Source of the DNA: Bacteroidetes bacterium GWA2_40_15
GTDB taxonomy: Bacteria; Bacteroidota; Bacteroidia; Bacteroidales; VadinHA17
Length of the DNA stretch: 46,202 nucleotides
Direction of reading: 5' to 3'
Assembly (NCBI GenBank): GCA_001768195.1
Contig: MENI01000025.1
Location: 1 to 46,202 of the forward strand
Under the pieces are notes generated by a model. It did not search any database. It saw only the letters and a list, made by a program, of their open reading frames with translations, and had not been told where the DNA came from. The position numbers were made by a program, and so were the translations under genes. Positions 3,491 through 42,359 of this stretch are shown in pieces (position 1 is the first letter of the stretch; each line of letters begins with the position of its first letter).

Positions 3491-3730
3491 ATTGCAGGAA
3501 TTAATAGCTGATTTACCCATAATGTGTATGAGATGAACAAAGATCAATTCCTTCTTAAGGATATACCAATATCAAAATTAGTCTGAATTTGCTCAAAATC
3601 AAAATATTTGCCTGGTGGAATGATCAATTAAAATTGAAATTGTATTTCTCATTCTTATTTTATTTGTAATTTACCTTGGAAATTGGAATATCAGATAGTT
3701 TTAATTAATAACAATAATGAAATTAATCAA

Positions 3731-12623: not shown

Positions 12624-12642
12624 TGACACATTTTTGTTTTTG

Positions 12643-18546: not shown

Positions 18547-19461
18547 TTAAACATAACCCCACATCTTCATAATCTCAAGGTCTTTTTTGACACATTCCAT
18601 AGGTGTCTTGCCCTGGTATGACTCCTGTTCAATTATATATACCTGGGCACCACCTATCTTTGTAGCAAGGTCAGTAACCTCTCTGGTATTTACAATTCCT
18701 TCTCCTATGATGGTGCTCTCATATTTTTCATCGCTGCCTGCCGGTGCCTCAATTTCATCCTTAACATGAAGGTTTTCAAACCTTCCCGGATACTGTTTAA
18801 CCACATCGAGTGCAATTGCACCTCCATTGTAAAGGTTTCCCATATCAAGCTGAACAACAACAAGCTTAGGATCCATACTCTTCATCATGATATCGAATAG
18901 TTTTTCACCATTAAGCGATTCAGCGAATTCAAACGAGTGGTTGTGGTAACCGAATTTCATACCCTGCTTGTTACACAGCTCTCCACACTTATTAAAAATA
19001 TCCATATAACCTTTAAAATCCTCATACTTATTTCTCATGGTCATGTCCATCGAAGGGCTTACAACATATTTCTGGCCCAGGATTGCTGCATCATCAACAA
19101 GCTTTTCCCACGAATCAGAAAAATCCTTTTTCGAAGCATCCCAGTGGGTTTTTCCAAAAACAGTATGACCACTTACCATCTTTAGACCAAGATCGTCAAG
19201 TATCTTTCTGAATTCTTTTGGAGCATAGGTATAAAACTTACCATCCACATAATTGGCATGCTCTACATAAACATATCCCATTTTTGCCACTTCCTTAAGT
19301 GACCCCAGAGGGTCCTTCTTCATCTCATCGCGTATGGAGTAAAGCTGAAGCCCCACTATAGAAGTTTTAGGAGCCGAGGCAAATACCTGGTTCCTTAACA
19401 GGGCGGCACCGGCAGTGACCAGGGCCCCTGTTTTGATAAATGTTCTTCTTGAAGTTTTCAT
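18547..19461 (-). CDS. Tat-exported sugar phosphate isomerase/epimerase-like TIM-barrel protein
   Basis: This 304-residue protein has a Tat signal (SRRTFIKTGALVTAGAALL) and a xylose-isomerase-like/AP-endonuclease-2 TIM barrel. Strand motifs include VGLQLYSIRDEM at the first strand, KFGYHNHSFEF with the conserved metal-binding His/Glu region, VVQLDMGNLY, ENLHVKDE and VYIIEQESY. Family members isomerise or epimerise sugars or inositols using a divalent metal. It is the last gene of an apparent minus-strand cluster with creatininase-family, sulfatase and OmpA-like genes, so it may act on a sulfated or modified sugar in the periplasm. The 76-nt gap to the upstream gene leaves room for its own promoter. 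Confidence 0.85.
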   Translation of the reverse strand: MKTSRRTFIKTGALVTAGAALLRNQVFASAPKTSIVGLQLYSIRDEMKKDPLGSLKEVAKMGYVYVEHANYVDGKFYTYAPKEFRKILDDLGLKMVSGHTVFGKTHWDASKKDFSDSWEKLVDDAAILGQKYVVSPSMDMTMRNKYEDFKGYMDIFNKCGELCNKQGMKFGYHNHSFEFAESLNGEKLFDIMMKSMDPKLVVVQLDMGNLYNGGAIALDVVKQYPGRFENLHVKDEIEAPAGSDEKYESTIIGEGIVNTREVTDLATKIGGAQVYIIEQESYQGKTPMECVKKDLEIMKMWGYV

Positions 19462-19537
19462 TAATCTGTTTTCTTTAAGTACTAACTATTCTATAATTAC
19501 TTGAATATATGTTTTATAACATGTTTTTATGAAACTA

Positions 19538-20299
19538 CTATTTATACATATTATTAATATCTGCCTGCGATAATTCAAGCATCAGGTTCCCTATTTTAGT
19601 AATAACGTCTTCATAGCACTTTTTAGCTTTATCAGGAGTAGCTTTCGATGGATTTCCTATACCGGTATCTTTGGTTATCTGGGTCCATTTTCTCTCAGCC
19701 CAGGCCCATTTTTCATTCAAAGCTTTAATTCTGAACTTTTTCCCCTCTCCTTTCCCTGCTTCAGTCAAAGGCAGTAAAAGCCCCGGGGCAATCAATTGCA
19801 TCATGCTGGTCTCCATTTCATCAGCATGGCCTCCGCTCTCCTCGAAGTAATCAGAATTTTCAAAAGACTGGTACCAGTTGCAGCAGCATATGAACATCTT
19901 TGGAAACTTAAAGCCAAGCTCTCTTATTATCTGTTTAAAATCATTTCCCCCATGTCCGTTAAGTATCATAAACTTTAAAATACCATGACGGTTAAGTACA
20001 TCAGCAACATCAGTAAGAACGGCCATCTGGGTGCTGGGATTCATATTAATATTCAGCTTAATATCAAGCTGACCTGTATTTACTCCAAAAGGAATTGTCG
20101 GCAGAACAATCACTTTACCACCCTTTTCCCATGCAAGTTTTGCTGAGTCCTTAGCAACACTTTCAACCATTATGTTATCGGTTGAATAGGGCAAATGATA
20201 GTTATGAGCCTCCGTGGCGCCCCATGGAAGAATGACCAGTTCGACTTTCAGTTCTTTAACAGTTTTCCAGTTGGACTCTGCTAATATGTATGGCTTCAT
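19538..20299 (-). CDS. Creatininase-family amidohydrolase
   Basis: This 253-residue cytosolic protein of the creatininase/MftE-like family has the metal-site motifs LPWGATEAHNYHLPYSTD (Glu, His and Asp ligands), LNGHGGND and the conserved GGHADEMETS segment. Family members are Zn/Mn-dependent hydrolases acting on amide or lactam bonds of small molecules. The neighbourhood (sulfatase upstream, isomerase downstream) does not fit creatinine breakdown, and I cannot name the substrate. No signal peptide is visible, although both neighbours are exported. It lies 50 nt after the sulfatase on the same strand. Confidence 0.85.
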   Translation of the reverse strand: MKPYILAESNWKTVKELKVELVILPWGATEAHNYHLPYSTDNIMVESVAKDSAKLAWEKGGKVIVLPTIPFGVNTGQLDIKLNINMNPSTQMAVLTDVADVLNRHGILKFMILNGHGGNDFKQIIRELGFKFPKMFICCCNWYQSFENSDYFEESGGHADEMETSMMQLIAPGLLLPLTEAGKGEGKKFRIKALNEKWAWAERKWTQITKDTGIGNPSKATPDKAKKCYEDVITKIGNLMLELSQADINNMYK

Positions 20300-20349
20300 T
20301 TTTCAGGCAATAATATTTATGAGTCTGACAGCCAAAGTTAGTAATTTAT

Positions 20350-22095
20350 TCACTTTATCCTCTCAACCTCAACCCAGAAAGGGAATATACTTTTCGAGTC
20401 GACAAGGTAATAAGGCACAAGATCGCACTCCATTTCCGGGAAGTGGATCCCATTCATTTCGATCTCGACAGCCTGATCAATCGTGTTTATTTTCTGATTT
20501 ATAAATGACCTGGTCTCCAGTATCATCTGCCCCTTGCCTTTTACCGGTTTCACAAACCTGAATTTCAGGTTATAATCTCCTTCGGTAAATCTGACCCGCC
20601 ACTTTCCGTTCACCTCCTCCTGGTCCCATATGCCCCGCTCACCGTCAGCATCATTCCTGCTGAGAAAGAGAGGATTTTCATGATTGCTGCCCAGAACAGC
20701 ATACGGAGGATCTGTCAGGTTGGGAGAATTGACCAATTCCTTAAATAACTTATCAAGATCATCTTTCAGGTTAATGGCAACGTCGGCTCTTTCCCCTACT
20801 ATATTATTCTGTTCGTACGGGTCTTTTGATATGTCAAAAAGCTCAAACCCGTTAATGTCAGAATCATATGCTACATGCCCTGCAAGCTTATAGTTACCCT
20901 TCAGAAGAGCAACATTATTGTAGAATTCCGGATATTTTCTCGTCCAGTAGAAGAAAATCGGCCGGGTCTGCCATTCCCTGGTTTTCCCTGTTATTAAAGG
21001 TACAAGGCTTTTGCCATCAATAATCCTGTCAGTGGGTAATCCGGCGTGGCATAATTCAGCTATCGTTGGCATTATATCAATATATGCCGTGTTTATTCCC
21101 ACTTCACCACTTTCTTTTAAAAGACCGGGGTATCTGATAAAACAAGGAACTCTGATACCTCCATTGTAAACTGAACCTTTGATGCCCCTCATTCCTGCAA
21201 CATATCTACGTTGCTGTGGGCCGTTATCAGTCATGAAGACAACTATTGTATTCTCCGATAGTTTCAGATCTTCCAGCTTCCTGAGTAGCTTCCCGATGTT
21301 CTCATCGATGTTTGCTACCATTGCGTAGACCTTCCTTGCATCTTCCTTGTCTTTCTCGCTCATTGCCGGAAAGGGCCTTCCATCATGCTTAAACCCTTTT
21401 GAAGGATCGGTATCCCTGAATAAATCATAATACCTGTCAGGTACCTGGAGGGGAGTATGAGGAGCGTTAAATGAGAGATAGCAGAAGAAAGGAGAGCTAT
21501 GGTTTCTCTCAATAAACTCAATAGCCTCATCAGCAAATATATCTGAACAATAGCCGGTATGTTTCTCCCGTTTCCCGTTGCTCCAAAGTACAGGATCAAA
21601 ATAACTGCTGTCATTCCTGAACCAGGTGGTTATATCTCCTACCTGACCCATTCCTCCGGCAAGATGGATCAGAGATTCGTCAAAACCCTGGTCAACAGGC
21701 CGCGAGGGATAATTGTCACCAAGATGCCATTTGCCAAAAATACCGGTTGCATAACCCTCTTTCTTCAATATTTCTGCTATCGTGATCTCATCTGAAGCCA
21801 TAATAGCTCCACCATTGTAAGTGTCGCGGATGCCTGTACGCAGTGAATAACGTCCTGTCATCAGGCCTGATCGTGTCGGAGCAGAAACGGGACAAACATA
21901 AAAGTTGTTAAGTCTGATACTCTGCCTTGCCAGATTATCAATAGCAGGAGTTTTAAGATGGGGATTCCCGGTAAATGAGAGGTCTCCGTAACCCTGGTCG
22001 TCGGTAATTATTATAACAACGTTCGGATGTTCTTTGGATTGAGCCGGACATAATGAGGACCCGGCCATAGCAATTGCTATAAGTCTGTATCGCAT
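20350..22095 (-). CDS. Secreted type I sulfatase, Ser-type active site
   Basis: This 581-residue sulfatase has a short signal peptide ending near CPAQ. Metal-binding residues are in IITDDQGYGDL and FMTDNGPQ. The formylglycine motif reads SAPTRSGLMTG, so the residue to be oxidised is Ser71 rather than Cys; a Cys sits three positions earlier (C68). Ser-type sulfatases need a radical-SAM maturase (anSME), which works without oxygen. The GIFGKWHLG and APHTPLQVP motifs are intact. The ~100 C-terminal residues beyond the catalytic domain are beta-rich. It would remove sulfate esters from glycans outside the cytoplasm. It follows the coiled-coil protein by 14 nt. No maturase is in the window. Confidence 0.92.
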   Translation of the reverse strand: MRYRLIAIAMAGSSLCPAQSKEHPNVVIIITDDQGYGDLSFTGNPHLKTPAIDNLARQSIRLNNFYVCPVSAPTRSGLMTGRYSLRTGIRDTYNGGAIMASDEITIAEILKKEGYATGIFGKWHLGDNYPSRPVDQGFDESLIHLAGGMGQVGDITTWFRNDSSYFDPVLWSNGKREKHTGYCSDIFADEAIEFIERNHSSPFFCYLSFNAPHTPLQVPDRYYDLFRDTDPSKGFKHDGRPFPAMSEKDKEDARKVYAMVANIDENIGKLLRKLEDLKLSENTIVVFMTDNGPQQRRYVAGMRGIKGSVYNGGIRVPCFIRYPGLLKESGEVGINTAYIDIMPTIAELCHAGLPTDRIIDGKSLVPLITGKTREWQTRPIFFYWTRKYPEFYNNVALLKGNYKLAGHVAYDSDINGFELFDISKDPYEQNNIVGERADVAINLKDDLDKLFKELVNSPNLTDPPYAVLGSNHENPLFLSRNDADGERGIWDQEEVNGKWRVRFTEGDYNLKFRFVKPVKGKGQMILETRSFINQKINTIDQAVEIEMNGIHFPEMECDLVPYYLVDSKSIFPFWVEVERIK

Positions 22096-23295: not shown

Positions 23296-24060
23296 ATGAA
23301 AATCGGAATAATAACTGACATACATGAAAATACCCTGCTGCTGCAGGAAGCACTTCGTATGATGTCAGTTAACAAATGTGATGAGATCGCCTGCCTGGGG
23401 GATATAGTTGGATATGATCGCAGGTTTTACAGATATGATGATTCCCGTAGCGGAAAGGAGTGCTTAAGGCTTATCAGATCGAACTGTAAATGGGTTACAT
23501 CAGGAAATCATGACCTGTATGCGGCCCACATCTTCCCTTCATATTCAAACGGATTTTCTTATCCCGAAAACTGGTATGAGCTTGATCCTGTTCAAAGGAA
23601 AAATATTTCTGCAGGCAAGGTATGGTGTTATGAAGGCGAAGCCCCAAATGATCTTACAGAAGATGATATTCTGTTTTTACGAAAGATCCCCGAGTATATT
23701 ATAGCTGAATATGGCGGATTCTCATGCCTGTTTACACATTATTTTGCACCTGATTTCACCGGTTCAACAACTACCTACATCGAACGCGGCTCTCAACTTA
23801 AATACCACTGGCAAACTCTCAGGGATTTTACTGTCAGATATTCCTTTTCCGGTCATTGCCATAGTCATTTTACAGGATTTGCTTACCATTCTGCCGGTTC
23901 ATATTCAAAAGCCATTCATTCCTTTTCAGGGAATAAATTTAATCTGGGCAGGGAAATGGTAGCAGTAATATTACCACCTCTCTCGGGTGAAAAGGGCAGA
24001 AGAGGTTATTCAATACTTGATACGGAAAGTATGACTTTGAAAATTTTCACTTCACTTTAA
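23296..24060 (+). CDS. Calcineurin-like metallophosphoesterase
   Basis: This 254-residue cytosolic protein carries the full set of metallophosphoesterase motifs: GIITDIHEN (Asp, His), CLGDIVGY (Asp), TSGNHDLY (Asn, His), a metal-binding His in FTHYFAP and FSGHCHSHF near the C-terminal side. Such enzymes hydrolyse phosphomonoesters or cyclic nucleotides with a two-metal centre, and YfcE/MJ0936-like forms are its closest shape. It ends 18 nt before the large DUF294 sensor gene, so the two are probably co-transcribed. This suggests, without proving it, that it acts on a nucleotide or phosphorylated signal connected with the sensor. Confidence 0.88.
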   Translation: MKIGIITDIHENTLLLQEALRMMSVNKCDEIACLGDIVGYDRRFYRYDDSRSGKECLRLIRSNCKWVTSGNHDLYAAHIFPSYSNGFSYPENWYELDPVQRKNISAGKVWCYEGEAPNDLTEDDILFLRKIPEYIIAEYGGFSCLFTHYFAPDFTGSTTTYIERGSQLKYHWQTLRDFTVRYSFSGHCHSHFTGFAYHSAGSYSKAIHSFSGNKFNLGREMVAVILPPLSGEKGRRGYSILDTESMTLKIFTSL

Positions 24061-24078
24061 TTTGAACCAGGATAAATT

Positions 24079-26940
24079 ATGCAGCAGTCAGAAGCAGGTC
24101 AGGGTAAAAAGCTCTTCTTCCTTAAAACAGATCTTCCCGCACTGTTTGCATTCATTCTTTTTGCAGGTTTGATCTTCATATATCTGATCCCCGGATTTGA
24201 GGATGCGATGATGGAAAGGAAAAGGACCCTGATAAAGGAAATGACATCATCAGCATACTCACTTCTTGATCATTATCATTCACTTGAATTAACAGGAGCC
24301 ATGGAAAGTGAAAAGGCCAGGACTCAGGCAAAGAATGCTATTGGTTCCATCAGATACGGGGATCAGCTTAAGGACTATTTCTGGATTACCGACAGGGAAC
24401 CTGTTATGGTTATACATCCATACAGACCCGACCTGAACGGGAAGGACCTTTCAGGATATCAGGATTCAAAGGGAAAACTCATTTTTGTTGAATTTGCCAG
24501 GGCGGTTTCCCCAACCGGCGAAAGCTATGTTGAGTATATGTGGCAGTGGAACGATGACTCTACCACAATTGTCCCAAAACTATCATATGTAAGACTGTTT
24601 GAACCATGGAACTGGATTATCGGAACCGGTATATATATTGAAGATGTCAGGACAGAAATAAGAAGGATGGAGTTCAGGGCACTGATTATTTCAGGTGTAA
24701 TAGGCATTCTTATCATAATTTTATTATCTGTTATTACCCGGCAAAGTCACAGGATTGAACAGAAGAGGAGAAAGACCGAGGAGGATCTCTTCCATTCAAG
24801 GGAGCTTTACAGGACTCTTGCTGAAGCAACAACGGAAGGGATAATTATCTGGACAAATAGCGGAATTCAGGCCAATAAGACACTTTTAACCCTGCTCGGA
24901 TATACTGAACAAGAGTTTAATAAAAAAACTGTGGATGATATTTTTGCATCCGTCGACATTGATTCCAGATTGGGCTCCGACCATGCTTACGAAGATCTTG
25001 GACTCCTCCAATTCGGGGAGTGTGAACTTAAGTCAGCTGATGGAACTCTGTTGAAAGCACATTCCGGGTACTCAAGGATACTGCTGGGGGATAATAAAGC
25101 CGTAGTCATTGTTATCCGGCCGGTAAAACAACAGGCAGCCGTGAAGGTTTTCAACCTTCCTCCGGAGATCCTGAAATCAATAGAAACAGGATTCTTCCGG
25201 ATCAGCTTTGGCAGAAAAACCAGGTTTATTGATGCAACTGAACCGGCCTTGAGAATCCTGGGATTTGACAATATAAGTGACCTCCTGATGTACCAGGTTG
25301 AATCACTTTTCGTGAATCCGAAACAATTAAGAATACTTAAAAAAAGGCTTGCCTCAAAAATTTCCATCTCAGAAATGGTATTAACACTTAAAAAGAAATC
25401 CGGTGCCGGTTTTGAAGCAATTGTGAGTATAATGGTGTTAGACCAGAACTATCCCGAAGTTTGGTGTGAGGGTACTATCGAATATTTAACAGCTGTTGAA
25501 CCAGTTGGTGAAGAATCCAATCCGGTACCGCCGAAGTATTATTTCTCGCTTATACAGAATGCTCCGGTAAGATCATTAATGAAAAGTCCGGTTGAATGCA
25601 GTTTCGATACATCTGCTTCAAAAGCGATGGAATATATGTTAGCGATTGATGCAGATGTTATTGTGGTAAATAATAACAAAGGTGTCCCCTGCGGAACTAT
25701 TGATACCTCAACTATTGTAAAAAAACTTGTGAATGGGGAATCCGCAGGAACTGAAGTTGGCAAATGGGTGAGCTCTCCTCCTGAATTTATAAATTTAGAC
25801 AAACCGTTGGCTCTTGCTATCGAAATTATATACAGCCACGGGAAAAAACCGCTGCTTGTAACTTCCTCTGATAACAAGCTGGAGGGTATCTTAACGGAAC
25901 GTGAGATTCTGCGTATGGCATCACTTTCAGATGACCTTCTGCGAAATCTGACAAACAATGCAGCAACACTGAATGACTATAAAGAAGTCTCTTATATAAT
26001 GAAACAGATGGCTGTTTCATTGATCCTGGGTAACATCGATCCACTTACAATCTCTTCTTTCATCTCAGGAACGGCCGATATGATTTGTGTTAAAGTCATA
26101 AAGATGTGCATTGATTCTTTGGGGCCTCCTCCATGCCGATTTGCTTTTATACAAACCGGGAGCGCCGGCAGAAGGGAACAGACACTGGTAACAGACCAGG
26201 ATAACGGAATAATTTTTGAAGATTGCGACGGAGAATTATTGAACAATGCCCGGAGCTATTTTCCCAAACTAGGGAGGAAAATTAATGAGACGCTGGCAGC
26301 GGCAGGATATAATTTATGCAAAGGGAATAACATGGCGGGTAATCCGAACTGGTCGCAGCCTGTAAAGGTCTGGAAGGAATATTTTTCAGGCTGGATAAGG
26401 ATCCCTGAACCTGTACGCCTTCTCGAAATGAGCATCTTCTTTGATTTCAGACATTGCTACGGAGATGATACATTAACAAGTGAACTCCGTGAGTACGTAA
26501 ATAACAGCCTGGTAACAAACGACATCTATTTTCATCACCTGGCTTCTGCCCTGAAACATTTTCAACCCTCCCTGATCAGAACCGGTTCAGGCATAACTGA
26601 CATAAAAAGGATCCTGATGCCACTTACCGGACTGATACGTCTGTACACCCTCAGATATGGTATCAGTGAATACTCTACAACTACAAGAATTCTGACTCTT
26701 CATAAAGGTGAATATTTTGATGCCGGATTGTTGCGTGAAACAATGAAATCACTAAAATTCCTGTCAAAGCTCAGATTCCGGCACCAGGCAGAGTGTATTT
26801 ACGGTGAAAAAGAACCTGATAATCTTATCGATTTCAGCTTAGCCGGAGAAAACACACTTTACTTTGCCAACCTCGCCATCGGGAGCATAAATAATCTTAT
26901 GCTGAAAGCCGGTAATGATTTTTATGCAACTGAAATCTAG
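24079..26940 (+). CDS. Membrane sensor: Cache-PAS-PAS-CBS-DUF294 nucleotidyltransferase
   Basis: Residue ranges are approximate. 19-40 is transmembrane helix 1. 41-195 is an extracytoplasmic sCache_2-type ligand domain (DYFWITDREPVMVIHPY, WNWIIGTGIYIEDV). 200-222 is transmembrane helix 2. 240-350 and 365-475 are PAS-like domains. 500-620 is a CBS pair (VRSLMKSP onward, ILTEREIL). 635-770 is a DUF294/GlnD-like nucleotidyltransferase with GS at 694-695 and catalytic Asp residues D706 and D708 (TDQDNG). 790-950 is the helical DUF294 C-terminal domain. Usual family members have a cNMP-binding domain ahead of CBS-DUF294; here a Cache/PAS membrane module takes that place. DUF294/CBS proteins are known neighbours of VC_2705-type symporters, and the symporter operon converges on this gene. 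The two stop codons overlap in the palindrome CTAG (26937-26940). It probably senses an external ligand and nucleotidylates or otherwise regulates the transport system. Confidence 0.88.
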   Translation: MQQSEAGQGKKLFFLKTDLPALFAFILFAGLIFIYLIPGFEDAMMERKRTLIKEMTSSAYSLLDHYHSLELTGAMESEKARTQAKNAIGSIRYGDQLKDYFWITDREPVMVIHPYRPDLNGKDLSGYQDSKGKLIFVEFARAVSPTGESYVEYMWQWNDDSTTIVPKLSYVRLFEPWNWIIGTGIYIEDVRTEIRRMEFRALIISGVIGILIIILLSVITRQSHRIEQKRRKTEEDLFHSRELYRTLAEATTEGIIIWTNSGIQANKTLLTLLGYTEQEFNKKTVDDIFASVDIDSRLGSDHAYEDLGLLQFGECELKSADGTLLKAHSGYSRILLGDNKAVVIVIRPVKQQAAVKVFNLPPEILKSIETGFFRISFGRKTRFIDATEPALRILGFDNISDLLMYQVESLFVNPKQLRILKKRLASKISISEMVLTLKKKSGAGFEAIVSIMVLDQNYPEVWCEGTIEYLTAVEPVGEESNPVPPKYYFSLIQNAPVRSLMKSPVECSFDTSASKAMEYMLAIDADVIVVNNNKGVPCGTIDTSTIVKKLVNGESAGTEVGKWVSSPPEFINLDKPLALAIEIIYSHGKKPLLVTSSDNKLEGILTEREILRMASLSDDLLRNLTNNAATLNDYKEVSYIMKQMAVSLILGNIDPLTISSFISGTADMICVKVIKMCIDSLGPPPCRFAFIQTGSAGRREQTLVTDQDNGIIFEDCDGELLNNARSYFPKLGRKINETLAAAGYNLCKGNNMAGNPNWSQPVKVWKEYFSGWIRIPEPVRLLEMSIFFDFRHCYGDDTLTSELREYVNNSLVTNDIYFHHLASALKHFQPSLIRTGSGITDIKRILMPLTGLIRLYTLRYGISEYSTTTRILTLHKGEYFDAGLLRETMKSLKFLSKLRFRHQAECIYGEKEPDNLIDFSLAGENTLYFANLAIGSINNLMLKAGNDFYATEI

Positions 26941-28175
26941 AACCTGTAAATTGCACTCAGCAGCACTCTGACATTTGTAACACTCTTTGCATCAGCTACT
27001 TTACCATTACTCTGCATTGTACCATAGGCTGCAGAGGTTGTTTCAATCTCAGTCCCAAAGCTGACCTTCCCGCTGGTAAAAATTATCCTTGGAGAAATTC
27101 TGAAGACCCTGTCTATATTGCTGCCCCTGGAATAAACAGGACCAGTTATTTCATCCACTGAGCCAAGATTGAGGCAGTATCCTGAGAATAATCCTACGGT
27201 AACTTTACTCCCGTTTGTTGACATGTCAATCCAGAAGCTTGCAGTATTGAGAGTTGTATATTTCTTATCCTGCCGTAGAGGATCAGTAATTTCAGAAACA
27301 CCATACCCTCCGATCATAAACAGATCTGTACCATTCTGTGTATAAGTACCCATCATGCTAACAGTAACAGGATTTGTTTTGATTCTGACTGTTGTAAATA
27401 ACGCCATCGATCCAATTGTTGCATCTGTTTCATAGTTTGCAGTAGTTTTTACCTCTGGCCGGAGTTTTTTGTAATCTACTCCTCCCCAGGCTGTTACATT
27501 CTCACTTAAAGGAATTTTTGCCTGGAGATTGATCCCTGGAAGAGCACTGTTTCTCATATATTTATTGCTTGGGCCTTCTATACCTGTAGAGATAAAATCA
27601 CGCTGCGAATATGCAGCTAACTGTACTGCAGCAGTTCCTGCTTTAAGAGTAATTCTTGCCTGTGGATTCCTGCTGAAAGGTGTAAAGGGTGCCCCCGTGT
27701 TGAAACTCAGGGTTCCCGGAAAGCTTTCGGACGGAAACATAGGATGCCAGTTCTGTCCAACCATAAGAGAAACATTACTCCAGTCGAGCTTTACAAATGC
27801 ATGACGTAACCTGAAACCATTTATGTCGGTTTCACATGTCCCAAAAAACTCAGCTTCAATCACACCTGATGTTTTTGCTCCAAATGCATCAGGGCCATTA
27901 ATATCGCCCTTCAGCCTTGACTGGATACTAAGAATATGGAAAGAAGGGCTAGCATTCAGATCATTCCCTTCCAGATCGGGAAGAACATTGTCAGGATAAA
28001 GATAAAAATGGCCCTCTCTGACTCCACACGACACCGGTGTCTGCCTTGTATCGTAAAAAATATCTGACTTAACAAATCCTGAAAACTTAATACCCCATTG
28101 AGGATCTGAACTCTGTGAATTTACATCGAGAAAAAAGGATGCTACCGTCATGTAAAAAATAAAGCTCTTTTTCAT
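26937..28175 (-). CDS. Porin-like outer-membrane beta-barrel
   Basis: This 412-residue protein has a signal peptide ending in VNSQS and the rhythm of a beta-barrel: amphipathic strands with G/N-rich turns throughout, an F-S-G-F-V-K-S-D first strand, the LMVGQNWHPMFPSESFPGT segment and a C-terminal strand ending in Tyr-Arg-Phe, a typical outer-membrane assembly signal. The DTRQ and GQNWHPMF-like segments resemble Bacteroidota porins encoded near carboxylate or sugar transporters. It is the last gene of the symporter operon, 55 nt after the TPR-like protein, so it may provide outer-membrane passage for the symporter substrate. Confidence 0.8.
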   Translation of the reverse strand: MKKSFIFYMTVASFFLDVNSQSSDPQWGIKFSGFVKSDIFYDTRQTPVSCGVREGHFYLYPDNVLPDLEGNDLNASPSFHILSIQSRLKGDINGPDAFGAKTSGVIEAEFFGTCETDINGFRLRHAFVKLDWSNVSLMVGQNWHPMFPSESFPGTLSFNTGAPFTPFSRNPQARITLKAGTAAVQLAAYSQRDFISTGIEGPSNKYMRNSALPGINLQAKIPLSENVTAWGGVDYKKLRPEVKTTANYETDATIGSMALFTTVRIKTNPVTVSMMGTYTQNGTDLFMIGGYGVSEITDPLRQDKKYTTLNTASFWIDMSTNGSKVTVGLFSGYCLNLGSVDEITGPVYSRGSNIDRVFRISPRIIFTSGKVSFGTEIETTSAAYGTMQSNGKVADAKSVTNVRVLLSAIYRF

Positions 28176-28230
28176 TTCTATCTGAATTTAATATATTCTT
28201 AATTTATTAGGCAATAGAATACTCTATGCC

Positions 28231-29022
28231 TCATTTTATAATTATCTGCTTCTTCTTTTTATCCGGAGGGAAAAGTGACTCCAGCAGAGTAGGCTTAACA
28301 GGTTCACCTCCCATAAGAACACTCAGATTGCTTTTTGCGGTCCTGTTGTCTTCCCATAATTCAAGAGCTTCCCGGAAACAGATAAGTGCGGAATCCTGCT
28401 TTTGTAAATGCCTGTAAATTGTACCTTTGTTGGTCATACTTACCGAAAGACGACGATCTGTTTCAATCTGAGCAGTAAGTATATTCTTAACTCTTCTTTC
28501 AAAAACCCTATCAAAATTAATTTTTTTAAACCGGGAATCATCTTCCAGCATTAACTGCCTGAGTTTCAAACTGATCTCTTCCGATGACAGATTGCCCCAC
28601 TCGGCTTTCCAACGGTTGTAACATGTTATACTGCTGTCGCAGTAATTCCCTGAAAGGCCCAGCAGACTTAATTTCTCAGAGTTGCTTATTGTGCTGTCAT
28701 AAATTGCCATTATCAACAAAGTACTGCTTTTATTATTATAGATAACCCCTATCTCAAATGAGCAGGCATAATCCGGCAATGATTTAAAAACAGCAGCTGC
28801 TGAATCCAGCACCGGGAAGGCATCAAAACCTGCCAGGCTCCCGGATACTTTTTCAAATTCAAGCAATATCTCCCTGGCCCTTGTTATCCTGGGATCCTCT
28901 GCCCTGTTTATCCTTCTGTAATAAAAGAAAGCAAAAAGCAGAGCCAGTAACGAAACTGAGAAGGTGATCGTAAGGATCACCTTCGTTCCTTTTGATACTA
29001 TAAAAATTTCCCGTAATCGCAT
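28231..29022 (-). CDS. Membrane-anchored TPR-like protein
   Basis: This 263-residue protein has one N-terminal transmembrane helix (about 15-35), a soluble region with scattered Cys and Ser residues, and a C-terminal TPR-type helix pair (SMTNKGTIYRHLQKQDSALI, CFREALELWEDN). It ends with a Lys-rich tail. Its ATG overlaps the symporter stop (TGATG), so translation is coupled. No enzyme motif is visible. It probably has an accessory or scaffolding role for the transporter or its sensor, which is an inference from context. Confidence 0.75.
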   Translation of the reverse strand: MRLREIFIVSKGTKVILTITFSVSLLALLFAFFYYRRINRAEDPRITRAREILLEFEKVSGSLAGFDAFPVLDSAAAVFKSLPDYACSFEIGVIYNNKSSTLLIMAIYDSTISNSEKLSLLGLSGNYCDSSITCYNRWKAEWGNLSSEEISLKLRQLMLEDDSRFKKINFDRVFERRVKNILTAQIETDRRLSVSMTNKGTIYRHLQKQDSALICFREALELWEDNRTAKSNLSVLMGGEPVKPTLLESLFPPDKKKKQIIIK

Positions 29023-30701
29023 CAATTATGAACCTGTTCGGCTAGAAACTTTTTGATTTCCAGAGGAGTAGGTGTAGTAAATTTGGAAACAACAATATTT
29101 ACAATTATCGAAATAGGAGCCCCGAACCAGGCAAAGTACCAGACATTCAGCCAGTATGATATAAACTCCTGACCCGGAAGCCTGCCACCACTTAAGCCTA
29201 CAATAAAATATGTCAGCGCAATTGTTGTTACCATAATTCCGGCAAACAACCCTGCTTTTGCTCCTGCACGGTTCGATCCACTCCACCATATTCCGAGAAG
29301 GAATAAAGGGAAGATGGTGCAGGCAGCCATTGAAAATGCCACTGACACAAGCTGTGCAATCAGTCCAAGCTTGAGAAGTGCCACAATTGTAACTGCAAGT
29401 CCCATAATTACAGTTCCGATTCTTGCAATCTTCAGTTGTGTTTTAGGAGTAGATTCCGGATTAATCACTTTAACATACAGATCGTGAGAAAATGCAGATG
29501 CACCTGCCACAAGTAACCCTGAAACAGTTGAGAATGCCGCTGATATAGCCCCGGCAGCCAGCAATCCGACTATCAGACCATTAACTCCGCCAAGCTGTGC
29601 TGTATATACCACAATAGCATCTTTTGCAAGGGATCCGACTTCGGGATTCGAGGAGAGAAGCCTGCCAAATGTTGAATACGCAGGAGCTGTCCAGTAAACC
29701 AGGCAGATAAAGAATAATCCCCAGACAACAGACCATCTTGCATCAGTTACTTTGGGAACTACATAAAACCGCTGAATGACGTGAGGCAGACCGGCTGTTC
29801 CAACCATAAGGGAGAAACAGATAGCTACCCACTGAAAAAATGATGTGCCTGTCGAAGGATCCCAGGGCATTGCAAATTCCGGACTCGGAACTATAGCCAG
29901 ATCATGCCCGTAAGCATTAAGAAGTGCTTCCCCTCCGGCAATATTTGGAGCAGCGATCCCTTGCACAATATCTGTAACAGCTGCTCCATAACCAACCTGT
30001 GGTATAAGCCAGAAATAGTCAAACTTAAATGCCATAACAAAAGTTGGTATCAGGAATGAGACAACAATTATAACATACTGGATCTGCATATTCTTGGTAG
30101 CACCTATCATTCCTGATATAAGGGTGTACAATAATACAACAGATGAACCTATTATAACTGCCCAGGTGTAATTCAGCCCAAGGATCCATTTGAACATCAA
30201 TCCTATACCTCCGAATTGTCCGACACAATAGGCGAATGAAATCAGTATTGTAAAGATAGCGCTTACAATCCTCAGATTGCGTGAATAGTACCTGTCACCA
30301 ATGAAATCAGGAGCAGTGTATTTACCATACTTTCTTATCTGTGCTGCCATCAGAATAAGAAGAAGTACATATCCTCCCGTCCATCCTACAACATACGCCA
30401 GGCCATTGTATCCAAAACCATACATCATACCTGCCATCCCCAAAACTGAGGCCGCACTCATCCAGTTTGAAGCAATTGCCATTCCGGAACCTACAGTTGA
30501 TATTTTTCTGCCGGCAGCGTAATAGTCGGCCGGATCCTTTGCCCTGAAAAATATCCCTACCAGAACAAATGTTATCAATATGGCAATAAGGATAATTGCC
30601 GGACCCGTTTTGAAACTTCCCTCAAGCTGAGTAAGACTCTGCCCAAAACCATTCAGGAGGTTTGCAAGGGAAAGAAATATAATAAGATAAATTTTTTTCA
30701 T
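29022..30701 (-). CDS. Sodium:solute symporter, ActP/VC_2705-type
   Basis: This 559-residue SSS-family (TC 2.A.21) transporter has about thirteen transmembrane segments and an additional N-terminal hydrophobic segment. Family motifs include AGRKISTVGSGMAIASNWMS, GTAGLPHVIQRFYVVPKVTDARWSVVW and AAGAISAAFSTVSGLLV. The MVGTAGLPHVIQRF block is typical of the VC_2705 subfamily, probable acetate or organic-acid:sodium symporters that usually work with a DUF4212 small subunit and are often near DUF294/CBS regulators. ATG 30701 is preferred; 30713 would add four residues. It lies 17 nt after the small-subunit-like gene and is translationally coupled to the TPR-like gene. The substrate is most likely a small carboxylate such as acetate, by family. 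Confidence 0.9.
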   Translation of the reverse strand: MKKIYLIIFLSLANLLNGFGQSLTQLEGSFKTGPAIILIAILITFVLVGIFFRAKDPADYYAAGRKISTVGSGMAIASNWMSAASVLGMAGMMYGFGYNGLAYVVGWTGGYVLLLILMAAQIRKYGKYTAPDFIGDRYYSRNLRIVSAIFTILISFAYCVGQFGGIGLMFKWILGLNYTWAVIIGSSVVLLYTLISGMIGATKNMQIQYVIIVVSFLIPTFVMAFKFDYFWLIPQVGYGAAVTDIVQGIAAPNIAGGEALLNAYGHDLAIVPSPEFAMPWDPSTGTSFFQWVAICFSLMVGTAGLPHVIQRFYVVPKVTDARWSVVWGLFFICLVYWTAPAYSTFGRLLSSNPEVGSLAKDAIVVYTAQLGGVNGLIVGLLAAGAISAAFSTVSGLLVAGASAFSHDLYVKVINPESTPKTQLKIARIGTVIMGLAVTIVALLKLGLIAQLVSVAFSMAACTIFPLFLLGIWWSGSNRAGAKAGLFAGIMVTTIALTYFIVGLSGGRLPGQEFISYWLNVWYFAWFGAPISIIVNIVVSKFTTPTPLEIKKFLAEQVHN

Positions 30702-30718
30702 ATCTGTTATCATGTTTT

Positions 30719-31489
30719 TTATTCAACAACTCCCTGCTTCTTCAATCTCCACTCTATCAATATGTTATATACTATACACAAACCAATGAACAGGATAAGC
30801 AGGAAGACTGCCGTATAGAAATAATGGAAAGGAAAACCAAGAAATTTTGTATCGGTCAGTATTGACTGATTATGTGTCATATATAACTTCATAATATCTT
30901 CCAGCCCCTCAAATGACTTATCATTCAATGTCCCCGGATAATCACTTTTCAGAGTGTATTTAAAAATCTCCGACTCAAGTGTCCCTTTTTCAATCCCTGT
31001 AAATGGCGCTGTGATTACAACTATCGAATTCGACAGTTCTGAAATTCTCTTCTTCGTCGCCAGGAATTCCTGGTCCTTTAATGCCGGCAGCATTAACCGG
31101 AGAGATTCTATTTCAGAGATTGTGGAAGTAAGTGTTGCTCTAAGTTCCTCTGTAAGCATCTGACCAGAGAAGCAACTGATTACATCGGAAAGGACTTTCT
31201 GTTCATCTGTTTTAAGAGTACCCTTCCCTCTTGCCATTATGAGGGAATTAAGAAATGACTTTGCATCGTCTGCTGAAACCCGGCCTGTTTTAACTGCCGG
31301 CCACAGCTTCTCAAAAGTAACAAGTGCCTTCTCCGGAACCGGTTTCTCAATAGCACGGAGCAGGAACTGGAAACCGAACACAGCAACAATCCAGACCAGA
31401 AGCATGGTAAGAATGACATTCCTGTTCTTCCTTCCATGTACATTCCGGGGCCGGAAAATACTGAAATTGTAATTTTCTGAAGATTCCAT
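30719..31489 (-). CDS. DUF4212-like symporter small subunit with large insertion
   Basis: This 256-residue protein has transmembrane helix 1 at about 25-45 (NVILTMLLVWIVAVFGF) and helix 2 at about 222-246 after the motif GFPFHYFYTAVF. DUF4212 small subunits are usually about 90 residues, with an opening VW helix and a GFP-x(n) second helix ending in a basic tail; both are present here. Between them lies about 165 residues of mostly helical, Ser/Thr/Glu/Leu-rich sequence (LTEELRATLTSTISEIESL), which by position should face outside the cytoplasm. The gene sits directly upstream of the symporter, where a DUF4212 subunit is expected. The assignment is by topology and position and awaits a profile search. 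Confidence 0.7.
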   Translation of the reverse strand: MESSENYNFSIFRPRNVHGRKNRNVILTMLLVWIVAVFGFQFLLRAIEKPVPEKALVTFEKLWPAVKTGRVSADDAKSFLNSLIMARGKGTLKTDEQKVLSDVISCFSGQMLTEELRATLTSTISEIESLRLMLPALKDQEFLATKKRISELSNSIVVITAPFTGIEKGTLESEIFKYTLKSDYPGTLNDKSFEGLEDIMKLYMTHNQSILTDTKFLGFPFHYFYTAVFLLILFIGLCIVYNILIEWRLKKQGVVE

Positions 31490-31581
31490 AAGATCTTGAT
31501 GGTTTAGGTATCGTTTTTAAATGCCAGCTAAAATAAAGAATATGTCTGTGCACTCTGCAATTAATATATTGCAATGTATCA

Positions 31582-31595
31582 TTGATTTAAATCAA
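31582..31595. promoter_or_regulatory. Perfect FNR-type operator between symporter operon and Crp/Fnr
   Basis: TTGATTTAAATCAA is a perfect dyad, and exactly matches the FNR consensus TTGAT-N4-ATCAA. Its centre (31588.5) lies 28.5 nt upstream of the first base of a TATATTTG promoter element (31617-31624) of the Crp/Fnr gene, and 99.5 nt upstream of the symporter operon start at 31489. Autoregulation and control of the operon are inferred. Confidence 0.65.
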
Positions 31596-31616
31596 CCTTT
31601 AGAATCAACTTTTGTG

Positions 31617-31624
31617 TATATTTG
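31617..31624 (+). promoter_or_regulatory. Candidate -7 element of the second Crp/Fnr gene
   Basis: TATATTTG fits TAnnTTTG, ends 30 nt before the ATG at 31655, and lies downstream of the FNR-type dyad at a distance that places the dyad near -41. Confidence 0.45.
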
Positions 31625-31654
31625 AAAACCTGATCAGTAAAATCTGATACATAT

Positions 31655-32344
31655 ATGAAAGTGACAACCAAAGTATCCTGTGAAATCTGTAAAAACAGAT
31701 GCGACATATTTGAAGCAATAACACTGACAGGACGATCATTCGCAGGTGCAAAGACAATCCAGGCGCAATTAAGGAAGCACGAAAGGATATGCCGTCAGGG
31801 AGACTTTGTAACTCATGCAATATACCTTATGGATGGTACTGCCAAGCTTTTTATTGAGGGGATAAACAGTCATAATATCATCCTCTACTTAATGAAGCCG
31901 CCTGCATATATAGGACTTCTCTCTTTTTTTCAGAGTATAAGCTATACATACTCAGTTACAGCGCTTGAAGATGCAAGGATATGCATGGTTGATCTTGATT
32001 ATCTGAAAGCGCTCTATCTGGAAAATAACGCTGTCCTCCTCAAACTGAACAAAGCTTTTGGAAAATCTGTGGCACTTATAATGAATAAGATAATTTGTTT
32101 GAATCAGAAGAATATACGTGGACGTATTGCAGAAAGTCTTTTATATCTGGCAGACTTCTACGGCAGCAACGAATATAGATTATCATTAACACGCAAAGAG
32201 CTGGGCGAGATGTCTGCAATCTCTGAAGAGAATACTGTCAGATTGCTGACTGAAATGCGTAAAGAAGGCATCATCAGTCTCGAAGGCAGGCAGGTAACAA
32301 TAAATGACAAAAGTATTCTCCGGAAAATTTCAGATCTTGGATAA
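31655..32344 (+). CDS. Crp/Fnr-family regulator with CxxCxxxC N-terminus
   Basis: This 229-residue regulator has a beta-roll sensor (about 45-135, including ERICRQGDFVTHA), dimer helix and winged-helix domain (LTRKELGEMSAISEENTVRLL) that keeps the Glu and Arg of the FNR-type recognition helix. The N-terminus has C9-x2-C12-x3-C16, and the beta-roll (RICRQG) and dimer helix (IICLNQK) carry further Cys at the same places as in the regulator at 11928-12623. That arrangement suggests an Fe-S or redox/NO sensor rather than cAMP binding. Its gene is divergent from the symporter operon, and the perfect FNR-type dyad sits in the gap. Confidence 0.88.
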   Translation: MKVTTKVSCEICKNRCDIFEAITLTGRSFAGAKTIQAQLRKHERICRQGDFVTHAIYLMDGTAKLFIEGINSHNIILYLMKPPAYIGLLSFFQSISYTYSVTALEDARICMVDLDYLKALYLENNAVLLKLNKAFGKSVALIMNKIICLNQKNIRGRIAESLLYLADFYGSNEYRLSLTRKELGEMSAISEENTVRLLTEMRKEGIISLEGRQVTINDKSILRKISDLG

Positions 32345-40022: not shown

Positions 40023-40114
40023 TGCAAACCATATAACATACAATACTATAACGAAAATCAGGTTTTGTGGAAGAGAAATGTATTAATTTAGCAGAATTCT
40101 ATTATCATCCCTCT

Positions 40115-41149
40115 ATGAAAAAAATGAAAGCTCTTGTCAAAGCCAGGCCGGAAAAAGGCTTATGGATGCAGGAAGTACCTGTACCCGAACCTGGCCTGAA
40201 TGACGTTATCATTAAGGTAAAAAAATCTGCCATCTGCGGTACCGATCTGCATATTTATGAATGGGATCACTGGGCACAGAAAACCATTAAAACACCAATG
40301 GTTATAGGTCATGAATACATGGGATATATTGAAAAAATGGGAGCCGGAGTCCCTAATCTGAAATTAGGTGAGAGAGTTACAGGAGAGGGGCATCTGGCAT
40401 GCGGGCATTGTCGTAACTGCCGCCGGGGTAAAGAGCACGTATGTGAAAATACCATTGGAATAGGAGTAAATACCGACGGATCATTTGCTGAATATGTAAA
40501 GATCCCTGCACAAAATGTCATACCTCTTGACCATCGCATCCCGGATGAATGGGCCGCTATAATGGACCCATTCGGAAATGCTACTCATACTGCACTTTCT
40601 TTTCCTCTGCTGGGGGAAGATGTTCTGATTACCGGATCAGGATTGATTGGCAGTATGGCCGTTGCAATTGCAAAATTTGCAGGAGCAAGATTCATTGTTG
40701 CCAGCGATCTTAGTGACTACCGCCTTGAAATTGCAAAAAAAATGGGTGCCACTCTTACAATTAATCCTTCAAAGGGGAATAAGATATCTGATGCTCTTAA
40801 AAAACTGGGAATGAGAGGTTTTGATATTGGCCTTGAGATGTCAGGCTCACCAAAGGCTTTCGTTGAGATGATCAGCTGCATGTACAACGGATCAAGCATT
40901 TCACTTCTGGGTATTCTCCCCTCCAATTTCGAAGTGCCCTGGAGCGATATAATCTTTAAGGCAATTACTCTGAAAGGAATATACGGAAGGGAGATGTGGG
41001 AAACATGGTACAAAATGGAACAGATGATAATCGGAGGAATCGATCTTAATCCGGTTATCACTCACCGCTTCCATATCGACGAATTCCAGAAAGGCTTCGA
41101 TGCCATGGAAGAAGGAAACTGCGGTAAAGTAATCCTAAGTTGGGACTGA
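40115..41149 (+). CDS. tdh: L-threonine 3-dehydrogenase
   Basis: This 344-residue zinc-dependent medium-chain dehydrogenase oxidises threonine to 2-amino-3-oxobutanoate with NAD+. Catalytic Zn ligands are in AICGTDLHIYEWDHW (Cys, His region) and GHEYMG; the structural Zn site is the four-Cys lobe CGHCRNCRRGKEHVC. The Rossmann motif is VLITGSGLIGSMA. MKKMKALVKA is the usual start, so ATG 40115 is chosen, with ATG 40124 also possible; a GTG-initiated extension from 40067 is unlikely. The partner kbl follows after 19 nt, making a standard threonine-to-glycine plus acetyl-CoA pathway. Confidence 0.95.
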   Translation: MKKMKALVKARPEKGLWMQEVPVPEPGLNDVIIKVKKSAICGTDLHIYEWDHWAQKTIKTPMVIGHEYMGYIEKMGAGVPNLKLGERVTGEGHLACGHCRNCRRGKEHVCENTIGIGVNTDGSFAEYVKIPAQNVIPLDHRIPDEWAAIMDPFGNATHTALSFPLLGEDVLITGSGLIGSMAVAIAKFAGARFIVASDLSDYRLEIAKKMGATLTINPSKGNKISDALKKLGMRGFDIGLEMSGSPKAFVEMISCMYNGSSISLLGILPSNFEVPWSDIIFKAITLKGIYGREMWETWYKMEQMIIGGIDLNPVITHRFHIDEFQKGFDAMEEGNCGKVILSWD

Positions 41150-41168
41150 TTTAAATAAGACAATAGAT

Positions 41169-42359
41169 ATGTATAACGAATACAAGAAGCATCTCGATAG
41201 TACTTTAAACGAGATCAGGGAGGCTGGTCTCTTTAAGAACGAACGCATTATCGTTTCACCTCAGGGTGCAGAGATTGAACTGAATACCGGTCAGAAGGTG
41301 CTGAACTTCTGCTCAAACAACTACCTCGGACTGTCAAACAACAAATCATTAATTGCTGCAGCTAAATCTTCGCTTGATGATCATGGCTACGGAATGTCGT
41401 CTGTGAGGTTTATCTGCGGGACTACTGATCTTCATAAAGAACTTGAAAAAAAGATTGCTGAATTCTTCAATACGGAAGATACCATACTGTATGCTGCCTG
41501 CTTTGATGCCAACGGAGGTGTCTTTGAACCATTACTTTCTGAAGAGGATGCAATTATCTCAGATTCACTCAACCACGCATCAATAATTGATGGCGTGCGT
41601 CTGTGCAAAGCTCAGCGCTACAGGTATCAGAATGCCGACATTGAGGACCTTGAGAAACAACTGCAACTGGCTCAGGCACAGAGATTCAGACTTATTGTTA
41701 CAGATGGCGTTTTCTCAATGGACGGAAATGTTGCTCCTCTCGACAGAATATTTGACCTGGCAAACAAATATAACGCCATGATCATGGTTGATGAATCGCA
41801 CTCGGCAGGCGTTGTTGGCAATACAGGAAGAGGAATTACTGAATTATATGACCTTAAAGGTAAAATAGAAATCATTACAGGTACTCTTGGAAAAGCATTC
41901 GGGGGGGCAATTGGCGGTTTTACCACCGGGAAAAAGGAGATAACAGACCTGCTCAGGCAAAGATCGCGTCCTTACCTTTTTTCAAATTCAATCCCTCCGC
42001 TTGTTGCTGCAGCCGGTATCCGCATGATTGAAATGATGACAGAAACAAACACACTTCAGGACAAGCTGCACAGGAATTCTGATTATTTCATTTCCGGTAT
42101 GAAGAAGCTGGGATTTGACTTAAAGCCTACAAAATCGGCTATTTGCGCTGTCATGCTTTATGACGCTAAATTATCCCAGGAGTTCGCTGCAAAGCTACTG
42201 AATGAAGGGATTTATGTTATAGGTTTCTATTATCCCGTTGTTCCAAAAGGTCAGGCAAGAATCAGAGTTCAGCTTTCGGCAGGACATGAGAACGAACACC
42301 TTGATAAGGCGCTTAAAGCCTTTGAGAAGATCGGAAAAGAACTTGGAGTCTTAAAATAA
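41169..42359 (+). CDS. kbl: 2-amino-3-ketobutyrate CoA ligase (glycine C-acetyltransferase)
   Basis: This 396-residue PLP-dependent enzyme of the alpha-oxoamine synthase family cleaves 2-amino-3-oxobutanoate with CoA to glycine and acetyl-CoA. The PLP Lys is K242 in GTLGKAFGG; other conserved parts are NNYLGLSN, GYGMSSVRFICGT, DSLNHASIIDG and MVDESHSAG. Length and motifs are standard. It is 19 nt downstream of tdh, its metabolic partner, and its acetyl-CoA product links to the organic-acid metabolism suggested elsewhere in the window. Confidence 0.96.
   Translation: MYNEYKKHLDSTLNEIREAGLFKNERIIVSPQGAEIELNTGQKVLNFCSNNYLGLSNNKSLIAAAKSSLDDHGYGMSSVRFICGTTDLHKELEKKIAEFFNTEDTILYAACFDANGGVFEPLLSEEDAIISDSLNHASIIDGVRLCKAQRYRYQNADIEDLEKQLQLAQAQRFRLIVTDGVFSMDGNVAPLDRIFDLANKYNAMIMVDESHSAGVVGNTGRGITELYDLKGKIEIITGTLGKAFGGAIGGFTTGKKEITDLLRQRSRPYLFSNSIPPLVAAAGIRMIEMMTETNTLQDKLHRNSDYFISGMKKLGFDLKPTKSAICAVMLYDAKLSQEFAAKLLNEGIYVIGFYYPVVPKGQARIRVQLSAGHENEHLDKALKAFEKIGKELGVLK

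Follow-up and report, generated by a model that had tools for sequence, protein, structure and literature searches.

The window analysed in this study covers 46,202 bases and constitutes an entire contig (C25, MENI01000025.1) of the genome of Bacteroidetes bacterium GWA2_40_15, which comprises 4.77 Mb in 127 contigs. Between positions 23296 and 32344 it contains a block of genes that encode a sodium:solute symporter with an enlarged small subunit and a receptor with a nucleotidyltransferase domain, and that probably form an uptake module for short monocarboxylates. A reading of the DNA made without database searches, termed in the following the sequence-only reading, had listed a phosphoesterase, a receptor, a porin, a TPR-like protein, a symporter, its small subunit, a regulator and an FNR-type site. 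All of these features were located and their reading frames are open:

23296..24060, plus strand: metallophosphoesterase (MPE), 254 amino acids (aa); Pfam Metallophos, no predicted membrane segment.
24079..26940, plus strand: receptor, 953 aa, with the order transmembrane segment (TM), sCache_2, TM, PAS, CBS, DUF294, DUF294_C according to domain scans.
24208..24669, plus strand: sCache_2 domain of the receptor, predicted to be periplasmic; relatives 4k08 and 5g4y/5g4z; contacts Y100, W102, H113, F136, Y153, W155, K167.
24796..25119, plus strand: PAS domain of the receptor (Pfam PAS_8, TIGR00229 sensory_box).
25573..25914, plus strand: CBS region of the receptor (Pfam CBS at residues 562-612, wider CBS-type match at 499-610).
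26002..26412, plus strand: DUF294 nucleotidyltransferase domain of the receptor (Pfam, 1.7e-38); motif G694 S695 x2 R698 x E700 ... D706 x D708.
26587..26835, plus strand: DUF294_C of the receptor, a putative substrate-binding domain (Pfam, 3.2e-14).
26937..28175, minus strand: DcaP-like outer-membrane porin, 412 aa, from the match of its family profile to 6eus.
28231..29025, minus strand: membrane-anchored TPR-like protein; start TTG at 29025 or ATG at 29022, hydrophobic segment 13-36.
29022..30713, minus strand: sodium:solute symporter of the VC_2705 family (TIGR03648), 563 aa, 497.7 bits.
30719..31489, minus strand: enlarged DUF4212-type small subunit, 256 aa; Pfam and TIGR03647 matches confined to residues 210-245.
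30851..31345, minus strand: inserted domain of the small subunit (residues 49-213), predicted to be periplasmic and mostly helical, between hydrophobic segments 22-48 and 216-249.
31582..31595, no strand assigned: FNR-type palindrome TTGATTTAAATCAA, exact, between the divergent subunit and regulator genes.
31655..32344, plus strand: Crp/Fnr-family regulator with CxxCxxxC plus cysteine 110 (cNMP_binding and HTH_Crp_2).

The MPE and receptor genes follow each other on the plus strand at a distance of 18 nucleotides, and the receptor gene meets the porin gene tail to tail with an overlap of four nucleotides. Latter is the last of a minus-strand run of subunit, symporter, TPR and porin genes, where five nucleotides separate the subunit from the symporter, the TPR gene overlaps the symporter gene and the porin gene is located about 55 nucleotides past the TPR gene. 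The regulator gene is divergent from the subunit gene.

Related loci were gathered by alignment of the symporter, and since the best 80 of 190 relatives were used and many loci are cut by contig ends, all presence counts are lower bounds. Tallies over the 80 loci omit duplicates from the same contig (L042/L057, L044/L108, L045/L126, L046/L106, L047/L093 and L048/L091). Profile searches identified the symporter in 80 loci, the enlarged subunit in 77, the TPR protein in 63, the receptor in 47, the porin in 44, the MPE in 29 and the regulator in 9, and in the three loci without a subunit match (L059, L061, L117) the symporter is found at a contig end. Wherever a locus holds both partners, these are almost invariably adjacent on the same strand: subunit and symporter in 77 of 77 cases, symporter and TPR protein in 63 of 63, TPR protein and porin in 35 of 36 and MPE and receptor in 28 of 28. 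A chance neighbourhood is ruled out by these tallies, and the block is a conserved module. The functional link between its genes, which the sequence-only reading had proposed, is thus borne out by conserved adjacency, with the receptor being present in 47 of 80 loci, many of them cut short. Several loci from Bacteroidales (e.g. L075, L077, L085, L121) contain a co-directional run of six genes in the order subunit, symporter, TPR protein, porin, MPE and receptor, and loci of the Ignavibacteria type (e.g. L098, L112, L126) the order porin, subunit, symporter and receptor without TPR protein or MPE. The recurring neighbours span metagenome-assembled genomes (MAGs) labelled Bacteroidota, Ignavibacteria, KSB1, Cloacimonadota and Delongbacteria, and the best matches of the symporter in named genomes are Bacteroidales MAGs. 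Genes in the flanks rarely recur in the 88 sources searched (TerB-like 4, PMT-like 3, OmpA-like 4), which places the limits of the block close to those given in the sequence-only reading, and no further gene common to the loci was found, with clusters of flanking genes peaking at 8 of 82 sources in case of a TIM-barrel protein described below. Within the genus of the window, the subunit is present in three of 37 genomes, including its own and with several of the genomes being incomplete, and the module is thus patchy. For alignments, 72 of 77 subunits, 59 of 60 TPR proteins and 37 of 41 porins were retained after removal of sequences with odd starts or truncations, together with all 26 MPEs of 235-300 aa. 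Receptors were aligned if they reached 780 aa, which gave 42 sequences, one from the window and the others from 41 loci; 45 of the 47 receptor matches exceed 300 aa.

The receptor contains two hydrophobic segments (residues 12-44 and 196-224), and the closest structural relatives of its Cache region in the PDB are 4k08 and 5g4y, which, with 5g4z, represent the sCache_2 sensors of the chemoreceptors Adeh_3718 and PscD. Reported ligands of PscD are glycolate, acetate, propionate and pyruvate, with propionate being contacted by Y90, W92, H103, F126, Y143, W145 and K156 (PMC5062169). All seven contacts are kept in the window receptor, in the same order as listed above, and they are invariant in the 42 aligned receptors and in nine of nine further receptors from a sample of 395 genomes of the phylum. 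The output is distinct, with a nucleotidyltransferase taking the place of the chemotaxis signalling domain of PscD and Adeh_3718. A relationship of the sensor region also extends to the kinase MctS (NF052443, 7.5e-22), whose family name presumably points to a control of monocarboxylate transport; MctS is a histidine kinase and its match is confined to residues 37-218, at 77 bits compared to an equivalog cut-off of 700.

The nine further receptors are found in different transporter contexts. Six (L151-L154, L156, L157) adjoin an ActP-like symporter, which in L157 is located one gene away, and two (L155, L158) have an MctC-like symporter nearby, whereas the ninth (L159, in genome G126) is near a contig end and the symporter and enlarged subunit of G126 are found at the end of another contig. 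These assignments are based on scans of the L151 and L155 symporters and of the small proteins encoded in these two loci and in L158, with other loci assigned by similar scores and sizes. The L151 symporter scores 747.6 bits against an ActP cut-off of 750 and that of L155 461.8 against an MctC cut-off of 670, while the small proteins of L151, L155 and L158 match DUF485. The same Cache pocket thus accompanies three kinds of symporters from monocarboxylate families, VC_2705, ActP-like and MctC-like. The MPE accompanies the receptor in seven of the eight loci L151-L158, where the symporters are ActP-like or MctC-like and have DUF485 subunits, and the receptor cassette thus occurs with more than one type of transporter. 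In a quick tree, receptors linked to ActP-like symporters group together with support, as do those linked to MctC-like symporters, and both groups are nested in a set of 41 rows whose other members are VC_2705-linked. The conserved contacts suggest that C2-C3 monocarboxylates are the likely ligands of the receptor by homology, which agrees with the regulation by ligand that the sequence-only reading had suggested as a possibility.

On the cytoplasmic side, DUF294 and DUF294_C are found in all 42 receptors and CBS in 40, and the catalytic motif GSxxRxE ... DxD is intact and invariant in the 42 sequences. The window genome contains a single DUF294 match. In the phylum sample, 125 of 395 genomes show such a match, 13 of them a strong one (at least 136 bits) in a frame of 806-985 codons, and all 13 are proteins with the seven Cache residues. 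The core of CBS, DUF294 and DUF294_C is shared with cNMP-CBS-DUF294 proteins such as Pflu5625 (L168 is an example), which also occur in an acetate context and whose catalytic motif is the same in 17 of 19 canonical DUF294 loci, but in the window receptor a transmembrane Cache-PAS input replaces their cytoplasmic cNMP domain. Known substrates of GlnD/GlnE-type enzymes are proteins. The C-terminal domains of these enzymes have been grouped with DUF294_C (PMC3710099). A DUF294-type protein with cAMP, CBS and nucleotidyltransferase domains is part of the acetate CrbS/R regulon, where nucleotidylation has been predicted in work from 1999 cited in the same study, and the signals and pathways of these proteins are there called unknown (PMC5715377). 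No paper pairing Cache with DUF294 was found in the open-access literature searched. Outputs recorded in a census of Cache domains include those of chemoreceptors, kinases, cyclases and phosphatases, and in a term search the words nucleotidyltransferase, DUF294 and CBS were absent from its main text (PMC4822843). The parts themselves belong to known families, but no description of the receptor form, of its dedicated partners or of the enlarged subunit was found in the literature searched.

The phosphoesterase, merely listed in the sequence-only reading, emerged as the most telling partner of the receptor. Its residues D8, H10, D36, N71, H72, H148, H187 and H189 are invariant in all 26 aligned members, in each of which the motifs DxH, GD, GNHD, H and GHxH from the metal site of calcineurin-like metallophosphoesterases are present; its relatives in the PDB are 3rqz and 3qfm. 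Orthologs were scored in the phylum sample with up to six candidates per genome. In this way, MPE orthologs (250-328 bits, with the next best match anywhere at 76) were detected in eight of the 395 genomes, from five families and including that of the window, and all eight are among the 13 receptor genomes and carry the MPE beside the receptor (Fisher test, 9e-14, kinship ignored). Four of the other five receptor genomes (G126, G284, G405, G413) encode a TIM-barrel protein of PF01261 at 421-470 bits, with a second copy of 260 bits in G126 and with the gene of G405 being located on another contig and containing one stop in frame. Elsewhere in the sample this protein is absent at ortholog level, with one other genome showing a match of 65 bits (Fisher test for the other five receptor genomes, 7e-7, kinship ignored). 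A corresponding pattern is observed in the 45 module loci with receptors above 300 aa, where the MPE is directly upstream in 27, the TIM barrel is found in eight and both are found in none (Fisher test, 2e-4); among the remainder, two are cut off and L093 leaves the contig just past the receptor. TIM-barrel proteins beside receptors (L091, L098, L104, L110, L112, L123, L126, L128, L159) keep H69, H109, E151, D189, H192, H216, D223, H225 and E254 in nine of nine cases, a pattern that appears similar to the nine zinc-binding residues of endonuclease IV. In the PDB they are most closely related to MJ1311, sugar epimerases and endonuclease 4, and an epimerase-like role may also be considered. Another PF01261 TIM-barrel gene is found in the window itself, as the first of a run on the minus strand (18547-22095), followed by what we presume by eye to be creatininase-like and sulfatase-like genes; it is not an ortholog of the receptor-linked protein, for which the window genome shows no match at 1e-15.

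A different partner is associated with the canonical forms of the enzyme. In 19 hand-picked DUF294 loci without Cache, of the cNMP-CBS-DUF294 type, a DEDDh exonuclease is adjacent in 11, a different RNase_T protein is located upstream in L171, and an MPE ortholog within three genes is found in none. Conversely, a profile search for the exonuclease in module loci returned no match in 88 sources. Pairing with a metallophosphoesterase in place of this exonuclease distinguishes the window receptor from the canonical proteins. From these distributions, the MPE is a dedicated partner of the receptor, and the simplest reading is that each form of the nucleotidyltransferase would have a phosphodiesterase-type partner acting on its product.

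With 497.7 bits, the symporter exceeds the curated cut-off of TIGR03648 (320.75). It is the one close symporter of this type in the window genome, where four weaker SSF matches reach at most 33 bits. This membership, together with the fact that this type of receptor is also found near symporters of the ActP-like and MctC-like kinds, lends support to the proposed import of acetate or another organic acid. The genome encodes Acs (981 bits) and acetate kinase (514 bits) and could thus use imported acetate. As in pairs of the VC2704/VC2705 type (TIGR03647/TIGR03648) and in ActP with its DUF485 protein, an SSF large subunit is combined with a small subunit with two membrane helices, but the window symporter shares 33.6% identity with its canonical, Acs-linked VC_2705 counterpart in L049 and its subunit carries an inserted, predicted periplasmic helical domain of about 150-165 residues. 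Latter protein scores 39.9 bits against a Pfam DUF4212 cut-off of 30, with the match covering profile positions 36-69 only and corresponding to residues 213-245 in the second membrane helix. It thus departs from the canonical form, which is short and matches nearly the whole profile. In the phylum, DUF4212 matches are found in 129 of 395 genomes. Besides the window, the match is confined to positions 33-77 in G126, G284, G405 and G413, where the frames have 234-257 codons, whereas nearly all others cover almost the whole profile, mostly in frames below 185 codons. In an AlphaFold2 (AF2) model from 72 sequences (pLDDT 91, pTM 0.79), two membrane helices flank a helical domain of about 150 residues, and fold searches with the inserted domain were uninformative.

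The window porin has no Pfam match, PF19577 included. Still, Pfam DcaP is matched by six of the 37 proteins aligned from its family, and a profile of this family finds the DcaP structure 6eus (E 4.9e-9); its proposal as a new family is therefore rejected. Of the novelty claimed in the sequence-only reading, the receptor form and the inserted subunit are undescribed in the literature searched, whereas the porin is DcaP-like. The TPR protein as a single sequence is below the Pfam cut-off, and in its family TPR_1 is found in 54 of 59 members at E <= 0.01. Its AF2 model shows a pLDDT of 92 and the best TPR match in Foldseek has an E-value of 2.4e-3 at a probability of 1.0, with none reaching 1e-3.

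The regulator contains a CxxCxxxC motif and C110, which are kept in 11 of 11 module-linked regulators. In E. coli FNR the cysteine spacing is CX2CX5C with C122, and that of the regulator differs. Since its score of 45.8 bits is far below the cut-off of 228 for the Fnr subfamily NF008365, we refer to it as FNR-like only. In ten of 11 regulator-linked intergenic regions, with L064 as exception, there is a TTGAT-N4-ATCAA site that is either exact (three regions) or deviates by a single mismatch. A one-mismatch site at a single locus arises in 2 to 5% of shuffles, and the case for the site is thus made by its recurrence. The exact palindrome is found upstream of the subunit in three of 76 testable sources (of 82), all of them regulator-linked, and the site was consequently rejected as a trait of the entire module. 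The FNR-type control proposed earlier is thus plausible in the window, with its exact site and four-cysteine regulator, and does not extend to the module in general; as the regulator stands beside the module in few loci, this control would be limited to a subset. A second regulator of the Crp/Fnr family (window 11928-12629, minus strand) is 30% identical to that of the block and contains other N-terminal cysteines without CxxCxxxC.

Taken together, we consider it probable that the block encodes a self-contained uptake module for short monocarboxylates with carboxylate-gated nucleotidylation that is reversed by the phosphoesterase. The sequences themselves establish the components, their joint conservation, the intactness of ligand pocket and catalytic motifs and the dedicated pairing of receptor and phosphoesterase, while substrate, ligand, coupling to sodium, cellular location and FNR-type sensing are predicted from homology. 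As judged from homology, the DcaP-like porin would allow an acid to cross the outer membrane, and the VC_2705-type symporter, presumably coupled to sodium, would transport it across the inner membrane together with its enlarged periplasmic subunit and the membrane-anchored TPR protein. Acetate is the most likely substrate, with propionate, glycolate and pyruvate being possible. The Cache domain of the receptor would bind the same acid in the periplasm, and PAS and CBS would relay the signal to a cytoplasmic nucleotidyltransferase activity resembling GlnD/GlnE. We hypothesize that this activity transfers a nucleotide to a target, for which the symporter, the subunit or another protein of the module are the most plausible candidates, and that the neighbouring metallophosphoesterase strips it off. 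In the clade of the window, the FNR-like regulator and its conserved site might add control by oxygen or redox state. More tentatively, and with the odds in our view leaning against the combined claim, the receptor might represent a class of transmembrane receptor nucleotidyltransferases that has not been recognised before, with acetate/propionate-gated reversible nucleotidylation of the symporter complex and an eraser that is swapped among at least three unrelated folds, namely a DEDDh exonuclease in soluble forms, a calcineurin-like phosphoesterase in most receptors and an endonuclease-IV-like TIM barrel in most others.

Several observations weigh against the proposed uptake module. No common acceptor residue for nucleotidylation was found. 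Despite at least 800 nucleotides of upstream sequence, 16 of the 45 receptor loci lack an upstream MPE (eight with TIM barrel, seven with neither partner, and L093), one of the 13 receptor genomes (G409) contains neither partner, and seven of the 19 canonical DUF294 loci are without a partner of this type. A gene for the regulator is found beside the module in nine of the 80 loci, in addition to the window and L043. The symporter fails the equivalog cut-offs of ActP (TIGR02711, 180.5 against 1099.25 bits) and MctC (NF058657, 205 against 670) by far, and its substrate is thus assigned from family and context. Porins of the DcaP type are known above all in connection with di- and tricarboxylates (PMC12338516). 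In P. fluorescens, deletion of the genes for the DUF294 protein, ActP or the DUF485 protein had a negligible effect on growth on acetate (PMC5715377). The P. aeruginosa cluster PA3232-PA3235, which includes an ActP homologue, is raised during growth on propionate, but PA3233-PA3235 were reduced twofold after propionate addition and the mutant of the actP homologue grew normally on propionate (PMC9765439).

Among the alternatives, one that we regard as unlikely assumes that the nucleotidyltransferase generates a soluble nucleotide signal or modifies RNA, that the partner degrades or trims this product and that transport is affected only indirectly. The partner families indeed include enzymes acting on nucleic acids or nucleotides (the RNase_T-type exonuclease, Metallophos, and PF01261 with its match to endonuclease 4). 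This is countered by the reported grouping of DUF294_C with GlnD/GlnE-type C-terminal domains and by the fact that the partner enzyme varies whereas a symporter for carboxylates is retained in the vicinity, in agreement with a target at the level of the symporter.

Somewhat less probable still is a scenario where phosphoesterase and TIM barrel accompany the receptor by descent only, with no role in reversing its output. In the quick tree with midpoint root, all eight TIM-barrel-adjacent receptors are placed outside the 41-row set that holds every MPE-bearing receptor (SH-aLRT 97), and partner choice thus follows lineage. Moreover, the four genomes with a TIM barrel are from one family (f42), the TIM-barrel gene is convergent to the adjoining receptor gene, at a distance of about 1.2 kb in L091, and there are the seven receptor loci with neither partner. 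However, family f42 also includes four MPE genomes, in three transporter contexts the MPE gene immediately precedes the receptor gene in the same orientation, and neither protein occurs at ortholog level in the 382 genomes lacking the receptor.

We assign a similarly small probability to the import of another organic acid, such as lactate, pyruvate or a C4-dicarboxylate, with the Cache pocket reporting a related metabolite instead of the substrate. Such an assignment would agree with the requirement of DcaP3 for growth of Acinetobacter on di- and tricarboxylic acids (PMC12338516), with the low identity of the symporter to that of L049 and with the binding of pyruvate and glycolate to PscD (PMC5062169). 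It is disfavoured by the identical receptor pocket next to ActP-like and MctC-like symporters and by neighbouring Acs-type genes, which flank three of 80 module loci (L070, L084, L089, at 417-424 bits; a fourth in L062 is weak at 51 bits) and are found near canonical DUF4212 pairs in ten of 22 hand-picked loci of the phylum, with the Acs of L049 and L089 both scoring as acetate-CoA ligase.

Other parts of the window contain a gene for a large protein with bacterial Ig-like domains and a C-terminal caspase-like peptidase domain (227-3547, minus strand), and a gene of the zinc-type alcohol dehydrogenase family followed by what by eye resembles a glycine C-acetyltransferase gene (40067-42359, plus strand), which are possibly a threonine-degradation pair.

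The described module ties carboxylate capture to environmental, mostly Bacteroidota MAGs, for which, to our knowledge, few uptake systems have been characterised. DUF294-type proteins recur near acetate transporters, and the module offers testable candidates for their function: the ligand is predicted at the level of residues, the MPE is a dedicated candidate for the eraser and the candidate targets are few. If the proposed mechanism is true, the usual classes of membrane receptors, given in the Cache census as chemoreceptors, histidine kinases, cyclases, Ser/Thr kinases and phosphatases (PMC4822843), would be joined by one that acts through a nucleotidyltransferase.

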